Shown here piece after piece: positions 1,114 through 27,251 of a stretch of 64,000 nt of DNA. The notes under the pieces are model-generated. The model was given only the letters and a program-made list of their open reading frames with translations. It was not told where the DNA came from and did not search any database. Positions within the stretch are counted from its first letter, which is position 1. The number at the start of each line of letters is the position of its first letter. The stretch lies in contig NZ_BCMZ01000001.1 in assembly GCF_001485535.1 (NCBI RefSeq), positions 2,046,001 through 2,110,000 of the forward strand, given 5' to 3'. The DNA is from Halobacterium sp. CBA1132. Lineage in GTDB: Archaea > Halobacteriota > Halobacteria > Halobacteriales > Halobacteriaceae. Made by a program: the position numbers and the translations under genes.

Positions 1114-1458
1114 TCAGAAGGTGGCGGCCAACAGGACCGCGCCGGCGACGCCGACGCCGGACAGCCAGCACACGACGTCGAGCGGGTTCGGAACGGGGAG
1201 GATGCGGTCTGGCTGGTAGTCCGACGGGTCGCCGGCCTCGGCCCCGACGAGGGCGCTTCCAGCCGCGGTCTCGATGCCGGCGTCCGTGGCACCGACGACG
1301 GCGGGGACGACCAGTAGCGGGACGCCGAGCGTCAGCACGCCGAGCAGTTTCAGGGGGAAGTCCACGAGCACGGCGACGCCCGCCAGCAGCGCGACGGTGA
1401 CGGGGCCAGCGACGACGCCGTAGCGAAGCGCCGCCGTACGGAGGGAGTCGCTCGCCAT
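1114..1458 (-). CDS. Hypothetical haloarchaeal membrane protein
   Basis: Protein of 114 aa. Two long hydrophobic stretches (about residues 12-34 and 36-58) are followed by a polar acidic loop and a third hydrophobic C-terminal segment (about 95-113), so it is an integral membrane protein. The start is MASDSLRTAALRYG; longer in-frame extensions are Arg/Pro-rich shadow sequence. It lies just downstream of hmgA in the same orientation with about 46 bp between, so it may be read through with hmgA. No family is recognised. Confidence 0.7.
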   Translation of the reverse strand: MASDSLRTAALRYGVVAGPVTVALLAGVAVLVDFPLKLLGVLTLGVPLLVVPAVVGATDAGIETAAGSALVGAEAGDPSDYQPDRILPVPNPLDVVCWLSGVGVAGAVLLAATF

Positions 1459-1504
1459 GCGCGGCAAATCGCGACGCCGCCGGAAATGTCTTCTCCTGAA
1501 CAGT

Positions 1505-2719
1505 TCAGCGGCCGAGCTCGGCGTGCGCCGAGGAGAGGTGGCGGGACGCGAGCGCGGCGAGCAGGCTGAGCTCACCGGCGAGCGCGCCCGCGGCGATGAT
1601 TTCCGCGAGCGCGTCGGCGTTCGACCCGGCCGGGTCGCCGCCACCGCGCACGCCGAGCACGTCCAGCGCCTCGCGCTGGGTCGGGAGTTTGGTGCCGCCG
1701 CCGACCGTTCCGACTTCGAGGCTCGCGAAGTTCACCGAGGCGTACAACTCCTCACCCCGGTCCTCGACGGTCGTGATGGCGTTCGAGCCCTCGACGACCT
1801 GCGCGGCGTCCTGCCCGGTCGCGAGGAAGACTGCAGCGACGGTGTTCGCGGCGTGTGCGTTGAATCCGAGGCTACCGGCCTTCGCGGAGCCGACGAGGTT
1901 CTTGCGCGTGTTCGCTTCCTCGATGGCCTTCGGGGTGGTGTCGAAGCGCTCCTCGACGACCTCTCGGGGGATGGTGACGTCCGCGGTGACGGTGCGGCCG
2001 CGGCCCTCGACGGCGTTGATGGCGGCGGGCTTCTTGTCCGAGCAGAGGTTCCCCGAGAGCGCGACCAGTTCCGCGGGCGTCTCCGCCTCGACGACCTCGC
2101 TGGCGGCCTCGGTGGCGATGGTGGCCATGTTCATCCCCATCGCGTCCTTCGTGTCGTAGGCGAACCGCAGGAAGACGTTGTCGCCGACGACGTACGGCGT
2201 GATTTCGGTGAGTTCGCCGTGACTCGTGGTCTCCTCGGCGGCCTCGCGGAGCGCGTCGAAGTTGTCCTCCACCCACTCAGCGACTTCGGCGCCCTCGGTG
2301 ATGTCCGCGACCCGGAACACGGGGGCGCGCGTCATCCCGACTTTCGTCACGCGGGCGTTCGCGCCGCCCGCCGCCGTAATCGCCGAGCAACCCCGGTTCA
2401 CGGACGCGACGAGCGCGCCCTCCGTGGTCGCCATCGGGAGGTAGAACTCGTCGTCGGCGCTGCCGCCCGAGACGGCGAGCGGGCCGGCGATACCGAGCGG
2501 AAGTTGGGTGCCACCAGTGAGGTTCTCGACGGCCGTCTCGGATGCGTGGTCGGCGTCGAACGTGAACGCGCCCGTGGCGTCGAGGCTGGCCTCGGTCTCG
2601 CGTTCGAGGAGTTCGCGGCGCGCCGCGGCCGCGGTGTCGGCGTCAGCGTGCTCCTCCAGTTCGTAGAGCCTGAGGTCGCCGGACTGCACGCGGTCGGCGA
2701 GGTCGGAGGCGTCGGTCAT
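1505..2719 (-). CDS. hmgA: Hydroxymethylglutaryl-CoA reductase (NADPH)
   Basis: Protein of 404 aa that reduces HMG-CoA to mevalonate with two NADPH, the committed step of archaeal isoprenoid lipid synthesis. Visible signatures of the class I enzyme are the substrate-loop region LPLGIAGPL (residues 73-81), the catalytic Glu in MATTEGALVASVNRG (E100), the NADP/Asp region KDAMGMNMAT (about 191-200), a Lys-containing SDKKPAAIN segment (about 227-235) and a C-terminal His-rich SRHLSSAHAELGR. The length is normal for the soluble archaeal form, with no membrane anchor. It is divergent from the amidohydrolase gene across about 107 bp. This enzyme is the classical statin target in haloarchaea. Confidence 0.97.
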   Translation of the reverse strand: MTDASDLADRVQSGDLRLYELEEHADADTAAAARRELLERETEASLDATGAFTFDADHASETAVENLTGGTQLPLGIAGPLAVSGGSADDEFYLPMATTEGALVASVNRGCSAITAAGGANARVTKVGMTRAPVFRVADITEGAEVAEWVEDNFDALREAAEETTSHGELTEITPYVVGDNVFLRFAYDTKDAMGMNMATIATEAASEVVEAETPAELVALSGNLCSDKKPAAINAVEGRGRTVTADVTIPREVVEERFDTTPKAIEEANTRKNLVGSAKAGSLGFNAHAANTVAAVFLATGQDAAQVVEGSNAITTVEDRGEELYASVNFASLEVGTVGGGTKLPTQREALDVLGVRGGGDPAGSNADALAEIIAAGALAGELSLLAALASRHLSSAHAELGR

Positions 2720-2826
2720 ACGTTGGCGTCGTCGCGGGGCGCCCTGAAGGTTGTCCTTTCGGCCGGTGTGCGGCGTCGCCGACCGCTTCCCGAACGTCTA
2801 AGCGGCCGGCCGCCCGCCGTGCAGAC

Positions 2827-4341
2827 ATGACTGCGGCAGCCGACCTCGTGTTGCGGAACGGCGAGGTCCACACGCTCGGCGACGCCGAGGAGACGTACGA
2901 CGCGCTGGCAGTCCGGGACGGCCGCGTCGTCGCGCTCGCCAACGACTACGACATCGAGTTTCTCGTCGGGACCGGAACGGACGTCCTCGACCTCGACGGC
3001 GGCGTCGTCCTCCCCGGGTTCGTGGACGCGCACACGCACATGGAGACCGTCGGCCAGTACGGCGTCCACGCCGACCTGCGCGGCGCGAGTGGCCCCGAAG
3101 AGGTCACCGAGCGCCTGCGAGCGCGCGCGGCGGAGACGGACGACGAGTGGGTGCTTGGGTACGGCTACGACGAGTCCGCGTGGGACGCCGACGACCTCCG
3201 CCAGTCTGCCCTCGACGCAGTGAGCGACGACCGGCCGGTGGCGGCCATCCGCGAGGACATGCACACCGCGACCGTGAACGCCGTCGCGCTCGACGAGTAC
3301 GGCGACGAGATGCCCGACAGCGACGTGCTCGGGGACGGCCGCCTCGTGGAGGACGCCGTCGAAGTCGTCTACGAAGCGACCGAACCCGACCCCGCGGAGA
3401 CGGAGTCGCTGCTGCGCGCGGCCCAGCGCGAGGCCAACGAGCGCGGCGTCACGGCGGTCCACGACATGGTGCGGCAGTCCCACGCGCCGCGCGCGTTCCG
3501 CGACCTCGACCTCGCGGGCGACCTCACGGTGCGCGTGCGCCTGAACTACTGGAGCGACCACCTCGACGCCCTCCTCGAAACCGGCCTGCGGACGAACCAC
3601 GGCTCCGAGCTGGTCGAGGTCGGGGGCGTGAAGACCTACACGGACGGGAGTCTCGGCGGCCACACCGCGAAGCTCTCGGAGCCGTACGCGAACGCGCCCG
3701 AGGAGACCGGGCAGTGGGTGGTCGACCCCGACGAACTCGAATCACTCGTCGAGCGCGCCGACGACGCCGGCCTGCAGGTGACCGCGCACGCAATCGGCGA
3801 CGAGGCCATCGACGCCGTGCTGGACGCCTACGAGGCCGCAAACGCCGACGCGCTCCGCCATCGCATCGAGCACGTCGAACTCGCCAGCGACGACGCCATC
3901 GAGCGCATGAGCGACCTCGGTGTGGTGGCGTCGATGCAGCCGAACTTCCTGAAGTGGGCCGGCGAGGACGGCCTCTACGAGAACCGCCTCGGCACGGCAC
4001 GCCGCGAGGCGACCAACCGTTTCCCGGCCTATCTCGACGCCGGTGTGCCGCTGGCGTTCGGCAGCGACTGCATGCCACTGGACCCGCTGTTGGGCGTCCA
4101 TCACGCGGTGAACGCGCCCGCCGAAACGCAATCGCTGTCGGTCACCGAGGCGCTGCGGGCGTACACGAGCGGCGGCGCGTACGCCGGCTTCCGGGAGGAC
4201 GAACAGGGCGCAATCACGAAAGGCGCACTCGCGGACCTCGTGGTGCTCGACGAGTCCCCGTGGGAGAACCCCGAATCAATCCGGGACATCGACGTGGCCG
4301 CAACGATAGTGGACGGCGAGGTCGTCCACCGCGCGGACTGA
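2827..4341 (+). CDS. Amidohydrolase family protein (YtcJ/exoenzyme-type)
   Basis: Protein of 504 aa with the amidohydrolase superfamily metal-dependent TIM-barrel. Visible features are the beta-sandwich N-terminus, the HxH metal motif in VDAHTHMETVG (about residue 70), a KTYTDGSLGGHTA segment with the candidate bridging Lys (about 270-282), His residues in ADDAGLQVTAHAIGD and HRIEHVE, and the catalytic Asp in FGSDCMP (about 413). The layout is that of the YtcJ-like branch, whose members hydrolyse N-substituted amides, but the substrate cannot be read from the sequence. It has its own promoter region opposite hmgA. The C-terminal VDGEVVHRAD closes the sandwich domain. Confidence 0.9.
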   Translation: MTAAADLVLRNGEVHTLGDAEETYDALAVRDGRVVALANDYDIEFLVGTGTDVLDLDGGVVLPGFVDAHTHMETVGQYGVHADLRGASGPEEVTERLRARAAETDDEWVLGYGYDESAWDADDLRQSALDAVSDDRPVAAIREDMHTATVNAVALDEYGDEMPDSDVLGDGRLVEDAVEVVYEATEPDPAETESLLRAAQREANERGVTAVHDMVRQSHAPRAFRDLDLAGDLTVRVRLNYWSDHLDALLETGLRTNHGSELVEVGGVKTYTDGSLGGHTAKLSEPYANAPEETGQWVVDPDELESLVERADDAGLQVTAHAIGDEAIDAVLDAYEAANADALRHRIEHVELASDDAIERMSDLGVVASMQPNFLKWAGEDGLYENRLGTARREATNRFPAYLDAGVPLAFGSDCMPLDPLLGVHHAVNAPAETQSLSVTEALRAYTSGGAYAGFREDEQGAITKGALADLVVLDESPWENPESIRDIDVAATIVDGEVVHRAD

Positions 4342-13524: not shown

Positions 13525-14793
13525 TCAGAAGATATTCGCTTGCCGGTAGACGGAGATACCTTGATGGGTAATCTCGTAGGGCTTAGTCTCCCGTGAGTGG
13601 TTGGCGTCCCGAATCTTCTGTATTTCGACGGCGAGGCGGGTCTCCCGGAAGTCCTCCGGGCGGATGTAGCGGAGGACGACGACGGCGTCCGTGAGGTATT
13701 CGATGATGCCGTGGCGGGAGGCGAAGGCGTTGTCTTCGTTGGCTTCGCTGGTGAGCATGGTGGTGACGCCGGCGTCCTTGAGCGCTTTCGTGAAGTCGTA
13801 GATTTCGGTGCGGCGAACGGACTGGTCGTCGTACATCATCTCCAGCAGGGAGACGGAGTCGAGGACGAGTCGGCTGGCGCCGAACTCCTCGATGAGGGTC
13901 GGAAGTTCGTTGCGGATGCTCGTGAGGGAGTTGGCCATCTCGATGGGGTCGATGTCGATGACCGCGAGGTTGCCTTCCTCGGTGTGGCGGTCGAACTCCC
14001 AGCCTTTCTCGGTGGCGCTCTGGACGACGCGCTGGCGGGACTCTTCGAGCGTGATGTAGACGGCCCGTTCGCCGTTCCGGATGGCTTCGTGGAGGAACTG
14101 GAGGCCGAACGTGGTCTTCCCGGTCCCGGCGCCGCCGATGGCGACGATGAGCGAGCGCTCGGGGACGCCGCCCTGCACCATCTCGTCGAGTCCCTCGATG
14201 CCGAAGTCGATGCGCGGGATGTCGGACTCGTATTCTTCGTCCTCCTCGAAGCCGCCCGAACCGCCGGCGCCGACGTCGCCGTCGAGGTCGAACCCGAAGT
14301 CGTCCTCGCCGCCGGGCGCCGCGCCGGCGCCGCCACCGCCGCCGCCACCGCCGAACGCCGCCGCGAAGTCGTCCTCGAAGAGGTCGTCGTCATCACCGCC
14401 GCCGTCGAAGTCACCGCCGCCACCGCCTCCGCCGAACGCCGCCGCGAAGTCGTCGACGTCGCCGTCGCCGGTGTCGGGCGCGGATATATCGGTGTCGCCG
14501 AAACTCGGTGGCTCCTCAGCATCGGGTCCGTCGGGTGATTCCCCGGCGGGACCCGTCGGCGGCGTGTCGGTGTCCGAGTCGCCCACGTCGTCCGAGTCAG
14601 CGCTAGCATCGAAGTCGGACTCCTGTTCGCCGTCCGACGCCAACTCGTCGTCCTCGGCGTCGGGGCTGTCCGGTTCAGAGTCGTCCACAGATTCGTCGGC
14701 TGCGTCGCTGTCGGACGCCTGCTGGTCGTCCGGAGCGTCCTCGTCGTCCCGGAACGCGCTCTCGAACCAGTCGTCGTCCTCCTCGTCAGCCAC
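13525..14793 (-). CDS. KaiC/RAD55-family ATPase with acidic Gly-rich N-terminus
   Basis: Protein of 422 aa from a GTG start ([14 protein letters not shown]). The first 190 residues are low complexity: Asp/Glu/Ser-rich, then two copies of a [14 protein letters not shown] module separated by acidic Gly-rich linker. The RecA/KaiC-like domain follows, with [18 protein letters not shown], Walker [15 protein letters not shown] (about residues 219-232) and Walker-B-like [14 protein letters not shown]. Single-domain KaiC-like ATPases of this type are common in haloarchaea with unclear targets, often regulatory. A longer in-frame extension to 15111 overlaps nadK and is rejected. It is divergent from nadK. 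Confidence 0.85.
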
Positions 14794-21559: not shown

Positions 21560-22657
21560 CTACTCGCCGACCAAGTCGTCGTAGCGCGCGCCCGTTTGCT
21601 TCAGCGTCTCCTCGGAGTAGAGTCGCTCGTGGTCGAACGGGAGGTGTTCGGCGGCGAGTTCGTCGATTTTCTCGTCGACGGCGTCGCTCTCGCGGCCGTG
21701 AATCATCGTGAAGAGGTTGTACGGCCAGTCCTGCTCGGGGCGGCGCGGCCGGTGGTAGCACAGCGTCACGTACGGAAGTTCGCCGACTTCGACGCCACGC
21801 TCGTCGAGTTCGTCGTCGGGGACGTCCCAGACGACCATGCAGTTGGCGTCGAAGCCGGTGACGACGTGGTTGACGACGCAGCCGACGCGCTTGATGCAGC
21901 CGTCCGCGAGCAAGCGCTCGGTGGCGTCGAGAACGTCCTCGACGGGCGCGCCGATGGCGTCCGCGATGTCCCGGTACGGCGTCGCTGACAGCGGGAAGCC
22001 GTCCTGTATCGCGAGCAGGAGGTCGGCGTCCAGCTGCGACAGGTCGCCGGCGGCGTCCTCGCTGATGCGGGTCGCGGAGACGTCCGTCCTGTCCAAGGAT
22101 TCGCGCTGCTCGCGGCTCCCTTCGGTCTCCGCTCGCTCGTTCGGAGACTCGCGCTCCGCGCTCGTCTCCCGGGCGAACCGGTCGCCGTTGACCACGGGGA
22201 ACTCCAGGTCGATGTAGTAGTCCGTGAGCATCGGGAGATTCAGCACCTGACAGCCCGTCTCCGCCTCGATGTCCGCGAGAATCTCGTCGCGCTTCTCGCG
22301 GCTGCCGGCGGTGACGACGAACCACTGGTTGTACTCGTGGGCGCGCCGGTAGTTGTGGTTGACCTGCTGGTAGCCGTTGATGACGTCCGCGATTTCGTCG
22401 TAGCGGTCGGCGGGCGCGCGCACCGCTGCGAGCGTCGACGACCCGACGACCGGCGGGTTCAGGACCGCGCCGAACCGCCGGAAGACGCCGTTCTCGTAGA
22501 GGCGCTCGACGCGTTCGAGCGCGTCCGCTTCCGTGATTCCGAGGTCGTCGGCGACGACTTCGAACGGGCGCTCCCGAATCGGGAACCCGCTCTGGTACTC
22601 GTCGATGAGGCGTGCGTCCACGTCGTCGACGCGTTCGCGCCAGTCGGCGGCAGCCAT
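21560..22657 (-). CDS. ahbAB: Siroheme decarboxylase, AhbA-AhbB fusion (Lrp/AsnC-like)
   Basis: Protein of 365 aa made of two tandem Lrp/AsnC-like units. Unit one (about 1-175) has VDARLIDEYQSGFPIRERPF, then HNYRRAHEYNQWFVV; unit two (about 210-365) has LDADLLLAIQDGFPLSATPY, then LCYHRPRRPEQDWPYNLF. These are the AhbA/AhbB (NirDL) signatures. The enzyme removes two acetate carboxyls from siroheme to give 12,18-didecarboxysiroheme in the alternative heme pathway. The linker around residues 180-205 (SAERESPNERAETEGSREQ) is unusual and encoded by GC-rich palindromic DNA. Many databases label such proteins as transcriptional regulators; the motifs argue for the decarboxylase. Confidence 0.85.
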   Translation of the reverse strand: MAAADWRERVDDVDARLIDEYQSGFPIRERPFEVVADDLGITEADALERVERLYENGVFRRFGAVLNPPVVGSSTLAAVRAPADRYDEIADVINGYQQVNHNYRRAHEYNQWFVVTAGSREKRDEILADIEAETGCQVLNLPMLTDYYIDLEFPVVNGDRFARETSAERESPNERAETEGSREQRESLDRTDVSATRISEDAAGDLSQLDADLLLAIQDGFPLSATPYRDIADAIGAPVEDVLDATERLLADGCIKRVGCVVNHVVTGFDANCMVVWDVPDDELDERGVEVGELPYVTLCYHRPRRPEQDWPYNLFTMIHGRESDAVDEKIDELAAEHLPFDHERLYSEETLKQTGARYDDLVGE

Positions 22658-22765
22658 TAGGGGGTCGTTGGGACTGCGTCGGCTACTGTTTACCGGTTCC
22701 CGTCGGGCGAGAGTCTGCCAGTGAAACCGGGTGGATTTACGCCGGTGGAGATGCAACGAATTGCC

Positions 22766-24421: not shown

Positions 24422-26035
24422 TCAGTCGCCGCGAACGCGAACGAACGGCGGGCTCGACTGGGCGTCGGCCCGGCGGATAGTGCCGTCGTCGCTCGTCGGT
24501 GTCCGGCGGCGTTCGACCGCGAGGCCGTCGGCGTCCCGGGCGACCGCGACCACTTGGTCGGCAGCGCCCGCGTAGAACGCCGCGAGCGTCTCCGGGACGA
24601 TGTCGCTGACGACGTTGAGGACGGTATCTCGGGCGTCGAAGACGCCGTCGTCGTTCTCGTAGCGGGCGGCCCGGGCGTCCGCCTCGCCGAGTATCTCCAC
24701 TTCGCCCGCGATGTTCCCAACGACCAGCAGCGGCGCGTCGCGGCGCGCGGCCGTCGTCTCATTCGCGGCGGCCAGCGACGACGCCCGGAGGTCGAAGACG
24801 TTCCGGTCGTCGGGCCAGCCGCCGAACGGGTCGAGGACGAACAGCCGGTCGTCGTCGAGGGCGTCCGCCAGCGAGTCGTCGGCGGCCGCGAACGCGTTCG
24901 CGAGCGTACCGCGGTCGAGCGTCGGCGGCGGCGTCAGCGACACCGCCGTCCCGGAGGTCGCGGCCGTCGCGACGACTTGAGCGAGTAGGCCGTCGACCGC
25001 GTCGGCGCCCGCGTCGTACCGGAGCACTGCCTGCCCGCCGACGACGAGACCGCCACCGAGGAGGTCGTCCAACCCGGGAACGCCCGTGTCGAGCGTGGGT
25101 GCGTCGGCCAGCCGCCTACGGCGGTCGGCGTCGGCGGCGGTGAGCACGCCCTCGACCTCCCCGAGCATCGCGGTCTGCTCGGAGCGCGCGTCGCGGATGG
25201 CGGCGACGTCGTCGTCGATGGCGGTCGCGCGCTCGGCGAGCGTCTCGCAGCGCTCCGCGACGGCTTCCGTGGTCTGGGCTTGGTCGTCGGTCGCCGTGGA
25301 CACCGACGAGATGCCGGCTGCGGTCTCCTCGACGGTCTCCGCCACCGCGTCGAGGCTCGCCATGGCGTCGGCGGTCTGGTCTGCGCCGCGCTCGATTTCG
25401 TCGGCGGCCTCGTCGAGTTGGGCGACGGTCTCCTCGGTGGCCGCCCGGACCGCGTCGAGGGCGTCCTCGATGTCGTCCGCCTGCTCCTGTGACTCGGCCG
25501 CCAGCTCCTTGATTTCGTCCGCGACGACGGCGAACCCGTCGTTGTCGCCGTCCGTGCGCGCGGCCTCGATAGACGCGTTCAGCGCGAGCATGTTCGTCTG
25601 GTCGGCGATGCGGTCGATGCCGGCGAGCGCGTCCGCGATGCGGTCGATGCGGTCGCGGAGCGCGTCCACCTCCGCGACGACGTCCTCGCTCACCTCGCGG
25701 ACGTCTTCCATGGTGTCGATGGCGTCCCGGGCGGCGTCGCGGCCGTCGGCGGTCTCGGCAGCCGCGCGCTCGCTCTGCTCGCTGACCTCCGTCGCGGTCG
25801 CCGCAATCTCCTGAATAGTCGCGGACAGCGACCCGACCTCGTCGACGACCCACTCGGCGTCCGCGACCTGTTCGCTGGTCCGGTCGTCGATGGCGGCGAG
25901 CTGGTCGTCGACGGTCGTCGATGCGGCGTGGACGACGTCGAGGGCTCCGCGGGCGTTGGCGAGCGACCGGTCCTCGGTCACCGCGGCGGCCTCGGCGTCG
26001 GATTCATCTGCCGGCGTGGGCTGGTCAGAACTCAT
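24422..26035 (-). CDS. Soluble MCP-type transducer fused to degenerate KaiC-like domain
   Basis: Protein of 537 aa without transmembrane segments. After an acidic leader it has a long coiled-coil methyl-accepting signalling domain (about 35-310), including the CheA/CheW-contact hairpin IADQTNMLALNASIEAARTD and NDGFAVVADEIKELAAES. From about 320 (LDTGVPGLDDLLGGGLVVGG) the C-terminus follows the KaiC/RecA pattern, but the Walker A loop reads VLRYDAGADAVD, lacking GKT. It is thus a cytoplasmic transducer with an ATPase-like domain that probably cannot hydrolyse ATP. It is divergent from the broken histidine kinase gene. Role in taxis or another CheA-linked pathway is inferred. Confidence 0.85.
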   Translation of the reverse strand: MSSDQPTPADESDAEAAAVTEDRSLANARGALDVVHAASTTVDDQLAAIDDRTSEQVADAEWVVDEVGSLSATIQEIAATATEVSEQSERAAAETADGRDAARDAIDTMEDVREVSEDVVAEVDALRDRIDRIADALAGIDRIADQTNMLALNASIEAARTDGDNDGFAVVADEIKELAAESQEQADDIEDALDAVRAATEETVAQLDEAADEIERGADQTADAMASLDAVAETVEETAAGISSVSTATDDQAQTTEAVAERCETLAERATAIDDDVAAIRDARSEQTAMLGEVEGVLTAADADRRRRLADAPTLDTGVPGLDDLLGGGLVVGGQAVLRYDAGADAVDGLLAQVVATAATSGTAVSLTPPPTLDRGTLANAFAAADDSLADALDDDRLFVLDPFGGWPDDRNVFDLRASSLAAANETTAARRDAPLLVVGNIAGEVEILGEADARAARYENDDGVFDARDTVLNVVSDIVPETLAAFYAGAADQVVAVARDADGLAVERRRTPTSDDGTIRRADAQSSPPFVRVRGD

Positions 26036-26266
26036 ACAGTTCCCCCGTCGCCGCGAGCGCGCGAGCCGACGCTCGCGGGCCGGGTTGTGGTGGTTGGTAA
26101 CACGGCATCGTTGGAGCAGTCCCTCGTCGCCGGAGAAAACAATTCCCATTCGGACAATATATGCTAATACACACATCTTTCGTGCAGGTTTCACCAAGTA
26201 TTCGAGACAATTGCCGAGATGCGCAGACGTTTATCGCACCTTCGTCGAAAATAGAGGTAGACAATC
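26036..26266. promoter_or_regulatory. Divergent promoter region, transducer / histidine kinase
   Basis: This 231-bp intergenic stretch is notably AT-rich for the genome (around 26135-26180, including caatatatgctaatac) and lies between two divergent signalling genes. A GTTTATCG box near 26229 fits the kinase promoter, and gaggtag just before the GTG may be a Shine-Dalgarno. The CATATATTG on the minus strand is about 120 bp from the transducer start, which would leave a long leader if used. Confidence 0.45.
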
Positions 26267-27251
26267 GTGGACGAACACATCGAGCCGGCCGGCGCGGACG
26301 CCGCGAGCCGGTACGCCCACCTCATCGAACACATCCAGGACGCCGTCGTCGAGTTCGAACTCGTCGACGGCGACCCCGTCGTCCGCCGCGTCAACGAGGC
26401 AGTGGCTCCGCGAGGAAGCGCGAGCGCTGGACGAACGCACGTTCTCCGGGGAGATAAACTACCAGCGCGTCCGCCGCGAGACCGCCTGCGGGCTGCGGGA
26501 GTTCCTCTACCGCGGCATCCCGTACGTCGGAGACGGCGCGACCACAGACGGGTTCGCCGTCTACACCGACCTGACGGACATCACGCGGACCGAACGCCGA
26601 CTGGAAGTGATGAACCGGGTGCTCCAGCACAACCTCCGGAACAAGGCCAACATCGTCCTCGCGTACACGACCGAACTGCTCGCGGAGTTCGACGAACAAC
26701 ACGCCCGCCGCACCGAAGCCGCCGCCCGCATCGAGGGCGCTGCCCGCGACCTCGAAACGCTGACCGAGGAGGCTGCGGACATCAACGCCGTCCTGAAGTC
26801 CACCGCGGACGACCGGACGACAGACTGCGTGCCCCTGATTCGCGACGTCGTCGAAGAACACCGCGGGAACTGGCCGGCGGCGAGCGTCGAGACCGATCTC
26901 CCCGGGTCGCTGGTCGTGCGCGCCAACCGCCGGCTCCAGTTCGCCGTCGACGCGCTCGTCGAGAACGCACTCGAACACAACCCCAGCGACGAACCCCGCG
27001 TCCGCGTGCGCGCCGCGCCCGACGACTCCGACGGCTGGGCGACCATCCGCGTCGACGACGACGGCCCGCCGATTCCCGACGACGAACGCGACGTCGTCAC
27101 CGGCGACGGCGACATCACCGCCACCCACCACGGCAGCGGCCTCGGTCTCTGGCTCGTCAAGTGGACGACCGAACTGTTCGGCGGCGAACTCACGTTCGCG
27201 ACCAGCGACCTCGGCGGCAACAGCGTCCGCCTCCGGCTTCCCAGGGCGTGA
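26267..27251 (+). pseudogene. PAS-domain sensor histidine kinase, frame-disrupted
   Basis: The first 46 codons from GTG 26267 read as a PAS start (DAASRYAHLIEHIQDAVVEF through VVRRVNEA). At about 26402 the coherent reading jumps by one base into another frame, WLREEARALDERTFSGEINY, continuing through the H-box MNRVLQHNLRNKANIV, the N-box VDALVENALEHN and the G-box HHGSGLGLWLVKW to 27251. About 25 PAS residues normally present between VNEA and WLRE are missing, so a short deletion seems to have removed PAS sequence and broken the frame. The kinase would not be made whole unless by frameshifting or if the sequence has an error. Confidence 0.8.

Follow-up and report, generated by a model that had tools for sequence, protein, structure and literature searches.

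A soluble haloarchaeal chemoreceptor with an inactive KaiC-like domain as its candidate input

A gene of Halobacterium sp. CBA1132 raises the question of what a soluble chemoreceptor could sense through a C-terminal domain that resembles KaiC and has lost the motifs of an ATPase. The gene lies in a 64,000-nucleotide stretch of DNA that we analysed as a whole and refer to as the window (Table 1). An earlier sequence-only reading had proposed that the encoded protein joins an MCP signalling hairpin to a KaiC-like domain. Both halves of this proposal were borne out, the first by a match to PF00015 (MCPsignal) at residues 100-266 (E=3.8e-33; 115.2 bits against a curated cut-off of 34.6) and the second by a confirmed KaiC/RecA fold. 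We consider it likely that the protein is a cytoplasmic chemoreceptor (Htr-type MCP) that uses a pseudo-KaiC domain as its C-terminal input and signals through CheW/CheA.

Table 1. Features of the receptor locus, and of a KaiC-like ATPase gene nearby, in window positions
Feature	Position	Strand	Basis or remark
KaiC-like ATPase, intact P-loop, long acidic N-terminal region	13525..14793	-	PF06745 at residues 197-418, E=2.9e-55
Receptor gene, cytoplasmic MCP joined at its C-terminus to an inactive KaiC-like domain	24422..26035	-	537 aa (P0001), acidic
Inactive KaiC-like (RecA-fold) domain, residues 313-511	24503..25099	-	hhalign, Foldseek, dN/dS 0.226
Loop ARYENDDG, candidate binding loop	24644..24667	-	Conserved; pLDDT below 50 at 459-464
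Former Walker B strand VVGNIAGE, Asp position now Asn441	24701..24724	-	Alignment; N441 and E445 conserved across fusions
Former P-loop RYDAGADAVD, residues 339-348	24992..25021	-	Aligned with TGDAGTGKTT of active domain
MCP coiled-coil hairpin, residues 9-310	25106..26011	-	AlphaFold2 model; helices 9-160 and 166-310
Hairpin tip NMLALNASIEAARTD, residues 148-162, predicted CheW/CheA contact region	25550..25594	-	Motif also in other MCPs of the genome
Intergenic region upstream of both the receptor gene and the divergent kinase gene	26036..26266	.	
Soluble PAS histidine kinase remnant, GTG at 26267	26267..27251	+	Alignment with L093; HATPase_c E=3.2e-17

The receptor and its MCP hairpin

The receptor ORF reads on the minus strand from an ATG at 26035 to a stop at 24422. 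Its start codon is backed by orthologues with a similar start position, and ten full-length haloarchaeal orthologues from named genomes share 48-65% identity with the window receptor. No transmembrane helix is expected in the protein, where the highest Kyte-Doolittle mean over 19 residues was 1.32. The hairpin and the KaiC-like domain are its only domains, in agreement with the earlier claim that it contains neither a transmembrane segment nor a classical sensor domain. Because the receptor has no other sensor domain, the KaiC-like part is the natural candidate for the input, as had been suggested. Elsewhere in the window, one minus-strand frame at 21560-22700 encodes two Lrp/AsnC-like halves in tandem. 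Going by the impression their translation gives, these presumably resemble the siroheme decarboxylase pair AhbA/AhbB.

The AlphaFold2 model of the receptor contains an antiparallel helical hairpin, and comparison of its tip showed it to be canonical, as in other MCPs of the genome. Candidate methylation sites, on the strength of their sequence, are the Glu/Gln-type motifs ATIQE (relatives have ATIEE) and TVEET. CheW/CheA-type domains, CheR and archaellins are all encoded in the same genome, so the principal components of a taxis pathway are in place. A TAG reported in CheW proved to be an ordinary stop codon, with the CheW frame intact. Matches to a defence library reflect coiled-coil similarity. 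Some cytosolic transducers of Halobacterium salinarum interacted with CheW2 and were not pulled down with CheA as bait (PMC3579733), so coupling of the window receptor to CheA should not be assumed.

Fold and lost ATPase motifs of the C-terminal domain

Residues 313-511 were modelled as an alpha/beta domain of ~200 aa. Family-library searches with the window C-terminus alone returned nothing convincing, and Arr-ms and PAXNEB appeared only as sub-threshold, chance-like matches. A first domain profile gave a low probability (7.6%) against the window KaiC as a single sequence, and profiles of both groups were therefore built. A profile of the KaiC-like domain was searched against 391 haloarchaeal genomes, and the source genome itself was searched with families and profiles. 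Matches were found in 79 of the 391 genomes and belonged to two kinds of proteins. MCP-KaiC-like fusions, mostly of 500-550 residues, occurred in 45 genomes (~1 in 9), which answers the earlier reading's call for a co-occurrence check: the architecture recurs among the sampled haloarchaea. Two-domain KaiC proteins of ~500 residues occurred in 47 genomes, and their first domain retains Walker A, the catalytic Glu and Walker B. Their degenerate second domain (L058-L092) retains the motifs HDG and KSPxG; library models matched it weakly, below the cut-offs where these were shown.

This degenerate second domain (A5) aligned with the fused domain at an hhalign probability of 100% (E=3.6e-39 over 206 columns). 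The A5 profile matched solved KaiC structures at E=1.2e-13, and the second-domain profile of the two-domain KaiC proteins matched their own first domain at E=7.7e-08. The window domain was modelled with a pLDDT of 82 and a pTM of 0.83. The best 50 Foldseek matches to it in the PDB were KaiC, RAD51 or RAD51-paralogue complexes; the TM-scores were moderate (about 0.4-0.56; best E 6.8e-4), for a model built from a shallow alignment of 8 sequences. The earlier assignment of a RecA-like C-terminus stood up to both profile comparison and fold search. We confirm that the C-terminal domain of the receptor is a KaiC/RecA-fold domain, with the degenerate second domain of two-domain KaiC as its closest kin.

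The P-loop, which had been described as lost, is indeed replaced by RYDAGADAVD at residues 339-348, and the pattern [GA]x4GK[ST] is absent from the entire 537-aa receptor. In the alignment, the STEQT of active domains, with its catalytic Glu, corresponds to TPPPT in the fused domain. K176, which lies in the MCP part, is the only lysine of the whole receptor, and the KaiC-like domain has none. The Walker A Lys and Ser/Thr, the catalytic Glu and the Walker B Asp that characterize a KaiC ATPase (PF06745) are all missing, and homology to KaiC extends across the RecA core, as in an inactivated KaiC (iKaiC). Judged by these residues, the domain is dead as an ATPase. The suggestion that it reads nucleotide has little in its favour, since the domain keeps neither the ATPase motifs nor any lysine, and its former P-loop is poorly conserved.

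Across the folded core of 29 representative fusions, conservation was lowest in the former P-loop (0.52). It was strong (0.75-0.80) at the ends of strands 2, 3 and 4 and in the segment GE-x3-R-x3-Y-x-ND, and Y459, N461 and D462 were conserved as well. Residues 459-464 are conserved yet modelled as flexible (pLDDT below 50), which suggests, without proving, that they belong to a binding loop.

These data bear on a narrower form of the main reading, in which the domain would be a MEDS-type small-molecule sensor, its ligand pocket rebuilt where nucleotide once bound and its link to KaiC one of ancestry only. We regard this as a real, if tentative, possibility. Strands 2, 3 and 4 end in conserved polar and aromatic residues, which lie where the ligand is bound in RecA-fold proteins, and 2 of 17 fused domains matched MEDS (PF14417), with a best E of 1.1e-4. 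However, all of these scores were below the curated cut-off of 29.8 (22.1 bits for L009), and the family search found no MEDS match in the window receptor itself. One strong MEDS-domain protein is encoded elsewhere in the genome (G000:C1:61522-61998; 132 bits, open frame of 500 aa), at a position unrelated to the receptor.

Distribution, history and selection

All fused domains form a single clade (support 100/100), apart from the KaiC second domains, and this clade spans several families. The clade and the presence of the architecture in 45 of 391 genomes show that it is not a chance fusion. The KaiC-like domain was apparently acquired once by fusion. Within the source genus, 2 of 13 genomes contain the receptor and the remaining 11 lack the fused protein, in contrast to the genome of the window; no other sampled genome of the source family contains it. 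In the tree, the window domain groups among sequences of the family that includes Haloarcula. Considering this placement and the sparse occurrence in its own genus and family, the simplest reading is that the receptor reached the source genus by horizontal transfer. No relatives of the receptor were found in viral contigs.

Compared with one same-genus copy, the receptor has a dN/dS of 0.19 as a whole, 0.055 in the MCP part (residues 24-312) and 0.226 in the KaiC-like part. Both parts are therefore maintained by purifying selection. We consider it very improbable that the receptor is a plain soluble transducer whose C-terminal domain is a functionless vestige. Such a loss of function would fit the poorly conserved P-loop region and tail, and the length of the C-terminal end, which differs between sub-branches. 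Against it stand the dN/dS of the domain, its retention across several families and the average conservation of its folded core, which is on a par with that of the MCP part (0.67 versus 0.68).

The distant half of the receptor family consists of 14 loci (L044-L057) and lacks the last beta-hairpin of the domain. In two of these loci (L053 and L055), the receptor is followed by two small proteins that resemble universal stress proteins, and L055 also has a second, short MCP gene downstream. In-frame stops in several relatives were considered as recoding and rejected, as they mostly arise where a match overruns the end of a shorter protein. The receptor gene of L033 is truly split, as its ORFs show. 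In that locus (1444-3012; genome G116), a TAG near the former P-loop region separates a 328-aa MCP part from a 168-aa KaiC-like part. One genome, G367, had two receptor matches with identical scores near opposite ends of one contig (L051 and G367:C1:3030537-3031160), which may reflect either a duplication or an artefact at the ends of the assembly.

Candidate inputs, partners and known systems

The KaiC-like domain follows the hairpin and is placed at the end opposite the tip. Cytoplasmic archaeal MCPs with C-terminal input domains are a reported class, in which some of the domains are unidentified (PMC9680633). We infer that the dead KaiC-like domain is the input because the receptor has no further domain beyond it and the hairpin, and because it is placed C-terminally, as in those receptors; it might instead be an output, localisation or oligomerisation module. 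As an input, the domain would bind an intracellular ligand or protein, not ATP-Mg. The predicted binding residues are P369, D374, D402, F404, W407, N441 and E445 at the strand ends of the former nucleotide site, and the flexible loop R455-D462 would take part as well. Such binding, at the hairpin base, would alter how the tip controls CheW/CheA and, through them, the archaellum, and methylation by CheR is expected to provide adaptation. A rebuilt ligand pocket seems slightly favoured as the input over a KaiC-type ATPase or a kinase, since the strand-end residues are conserved and the domain weakly resembles MEDS.

The sequence-only reading had named the KaiC at 13525-14793 as a candidate partner and had given it an extended acidic tail. 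The acidic region lies N-terminal to the KaiC domain, not C-terminal. The gene was found in 31 of 40 relatives, among them 12 of the 13 genomes of the genus, as against 2 of 13 for the receptor, and is thus not specific to it. As its distribution does not track the receptor, we rejected it as a dedicated partner.

An alternative proposal is that the dead domain docks on the ring of an active KaiC-like ATPase and signals that ATPase's nucleotide or phosphorylation state to the chemotaxis array, whereby an energy or clock-like state would bias swimming. We think this unlikely. The closest relatives of the domain are second domains covalently joined to active KaiC domains, and stacking of a KaiC second domain on the active domain is expected from KaiC architecture. 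There is also a precedent in motility, as KaiC-family proteins touch it in archaea through ArlH and, in Haloferax volcanii, CirA (PMC13286277), and several KaiC-like ATPases are encoded in the source genome. However, no specific partner emerged. The KaiC at 13525-14793 occurs in most relatives irrespective of the receptor. Two-domain KaiC was found in 11 of the 45 receptor genomes versus 5.4 expected (odds ratio 2.8, p=0.013, ignoring kinship and with seven candidates scored per genome), and a profile search did not find this family in the source genome. The receptors have no intact copy of the KSPxG motif of two-domain KaiC, and from the distant ones that hairpin is missing. That the state of a KaiC-like ring, as a measure of cell energy or timing, directly biases swimming, with the receptor as a physical bridge between the archaeal KaiC network and bacterial-type chemotaxis, is in our view decidedly unlikely.

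A gene that the earlier reading did not mention encodes a PAS histidine kinase next to the receptor. Of the 31 close-clade loci (L013-L043), 29 have this neighbour next to the receptor, in three arrangements: mostly directly downstream with a 1- or 4-base overlap, divergently in the window and its same-genus relative, and convergently in L043. At eight loci a long open frame was taken for the kinase, which puts its listed start inside the receptor gene; these loci were counted as tandem. The kinase was absent beside L036 and L037, wider flanks included (L095 and L096), and from the 14 loci of the distant clade. The adjacent kinase is the better-supported partner compared to the KaiC at 13525-14793, and in most close orthologues the two adjacent genes probably act in the same pathway. 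The KaiC-like domain could then be mainly an adaptor for the kinase, which would be the real sensor. The conserved adjacency in three arrangements, usually with overlapping genes, argues for this, but the kinase is missing from the distant clade and damaged in the source genome, where the receptor is intact; we find the adaptor role doubtful. The damage is a loss of 71 bases just after 26400, which shifts the frame relative to the intact same-genus copy (L093 4621-5679) and is possibly an assembly error. Because the adjacent kinase is frameshifted, the receptor of the source genome either works alone or is in early decay.

Among known systems, TlpD of Helicobacter is a soluble MCP with its input domain C-terminal to the hairpin, as in the window receptor; that input is a zinc-binding CZB domain, unrelated to the pseudo-KaiC. 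Cyanobacterial KaiC has the RecA-like fold in common with the receptor, according to the Foldseek and profile matches, but the receptor has neither the ATP site nor an attached active ring domain. The second domain of the two-domain haloarchaeal KaiC (L058-L092) is homologous to the receptor domain over its full length. Its first domain is active, whereas the receptor has an MCP hairpin at that place and no intact KSPxG. KaiC-like proteins have reportedly been proposed as archaeal signalling hubs. Through the receptor family, a possible input of the KaiC network into swimming behaviour can be tested genetically, and the intact receptor-kinase pair makes Haloarcula species suitable for such tests.

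Htr13, Htr15 and Car/Htr11 of Halobacterium salinarum are likewise soluble MCPs that feed taxis and associate with CheW2 (PMC3579733). Unlike the window receptor, the cytosolic Htrs of this species are described there with no KaiC-like C-terminal domain. A survey of the chemoreceptors of archaea (PMC9680633) describes C-terminal regions that it leaves unassigned, and its main text makes no mention of KaiC. A KaiC-like identity may explain some of these regions in archaeal cytoplasmic chemoreceptors.

In the passages of PMC5847659 covered, MEDS is listed as an inactivated KaiC family, and Table 2 of that paper places MEDS/DUF835 iKaiC on archaeal receiver domains, likewise an inactivated KaiC with a signalling module. 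The partners listed in those passages are REC or PAS, as opposed to MCP in the window receptor, and no iKaiC-MCP fusion was seen in them. The literature covered contained no published MCP-KaiC fusion; it did not extend to Makarova et al. 2017, where an earlier mention is possible. Dead KaiC domains on receiver domains were already known, and their presence on a chemoreceptor looks like an addition to this theme. The MCP-KaiC-like fusion appears to be a genuine, as yet uncharacterised module that provides input to the control of movement.
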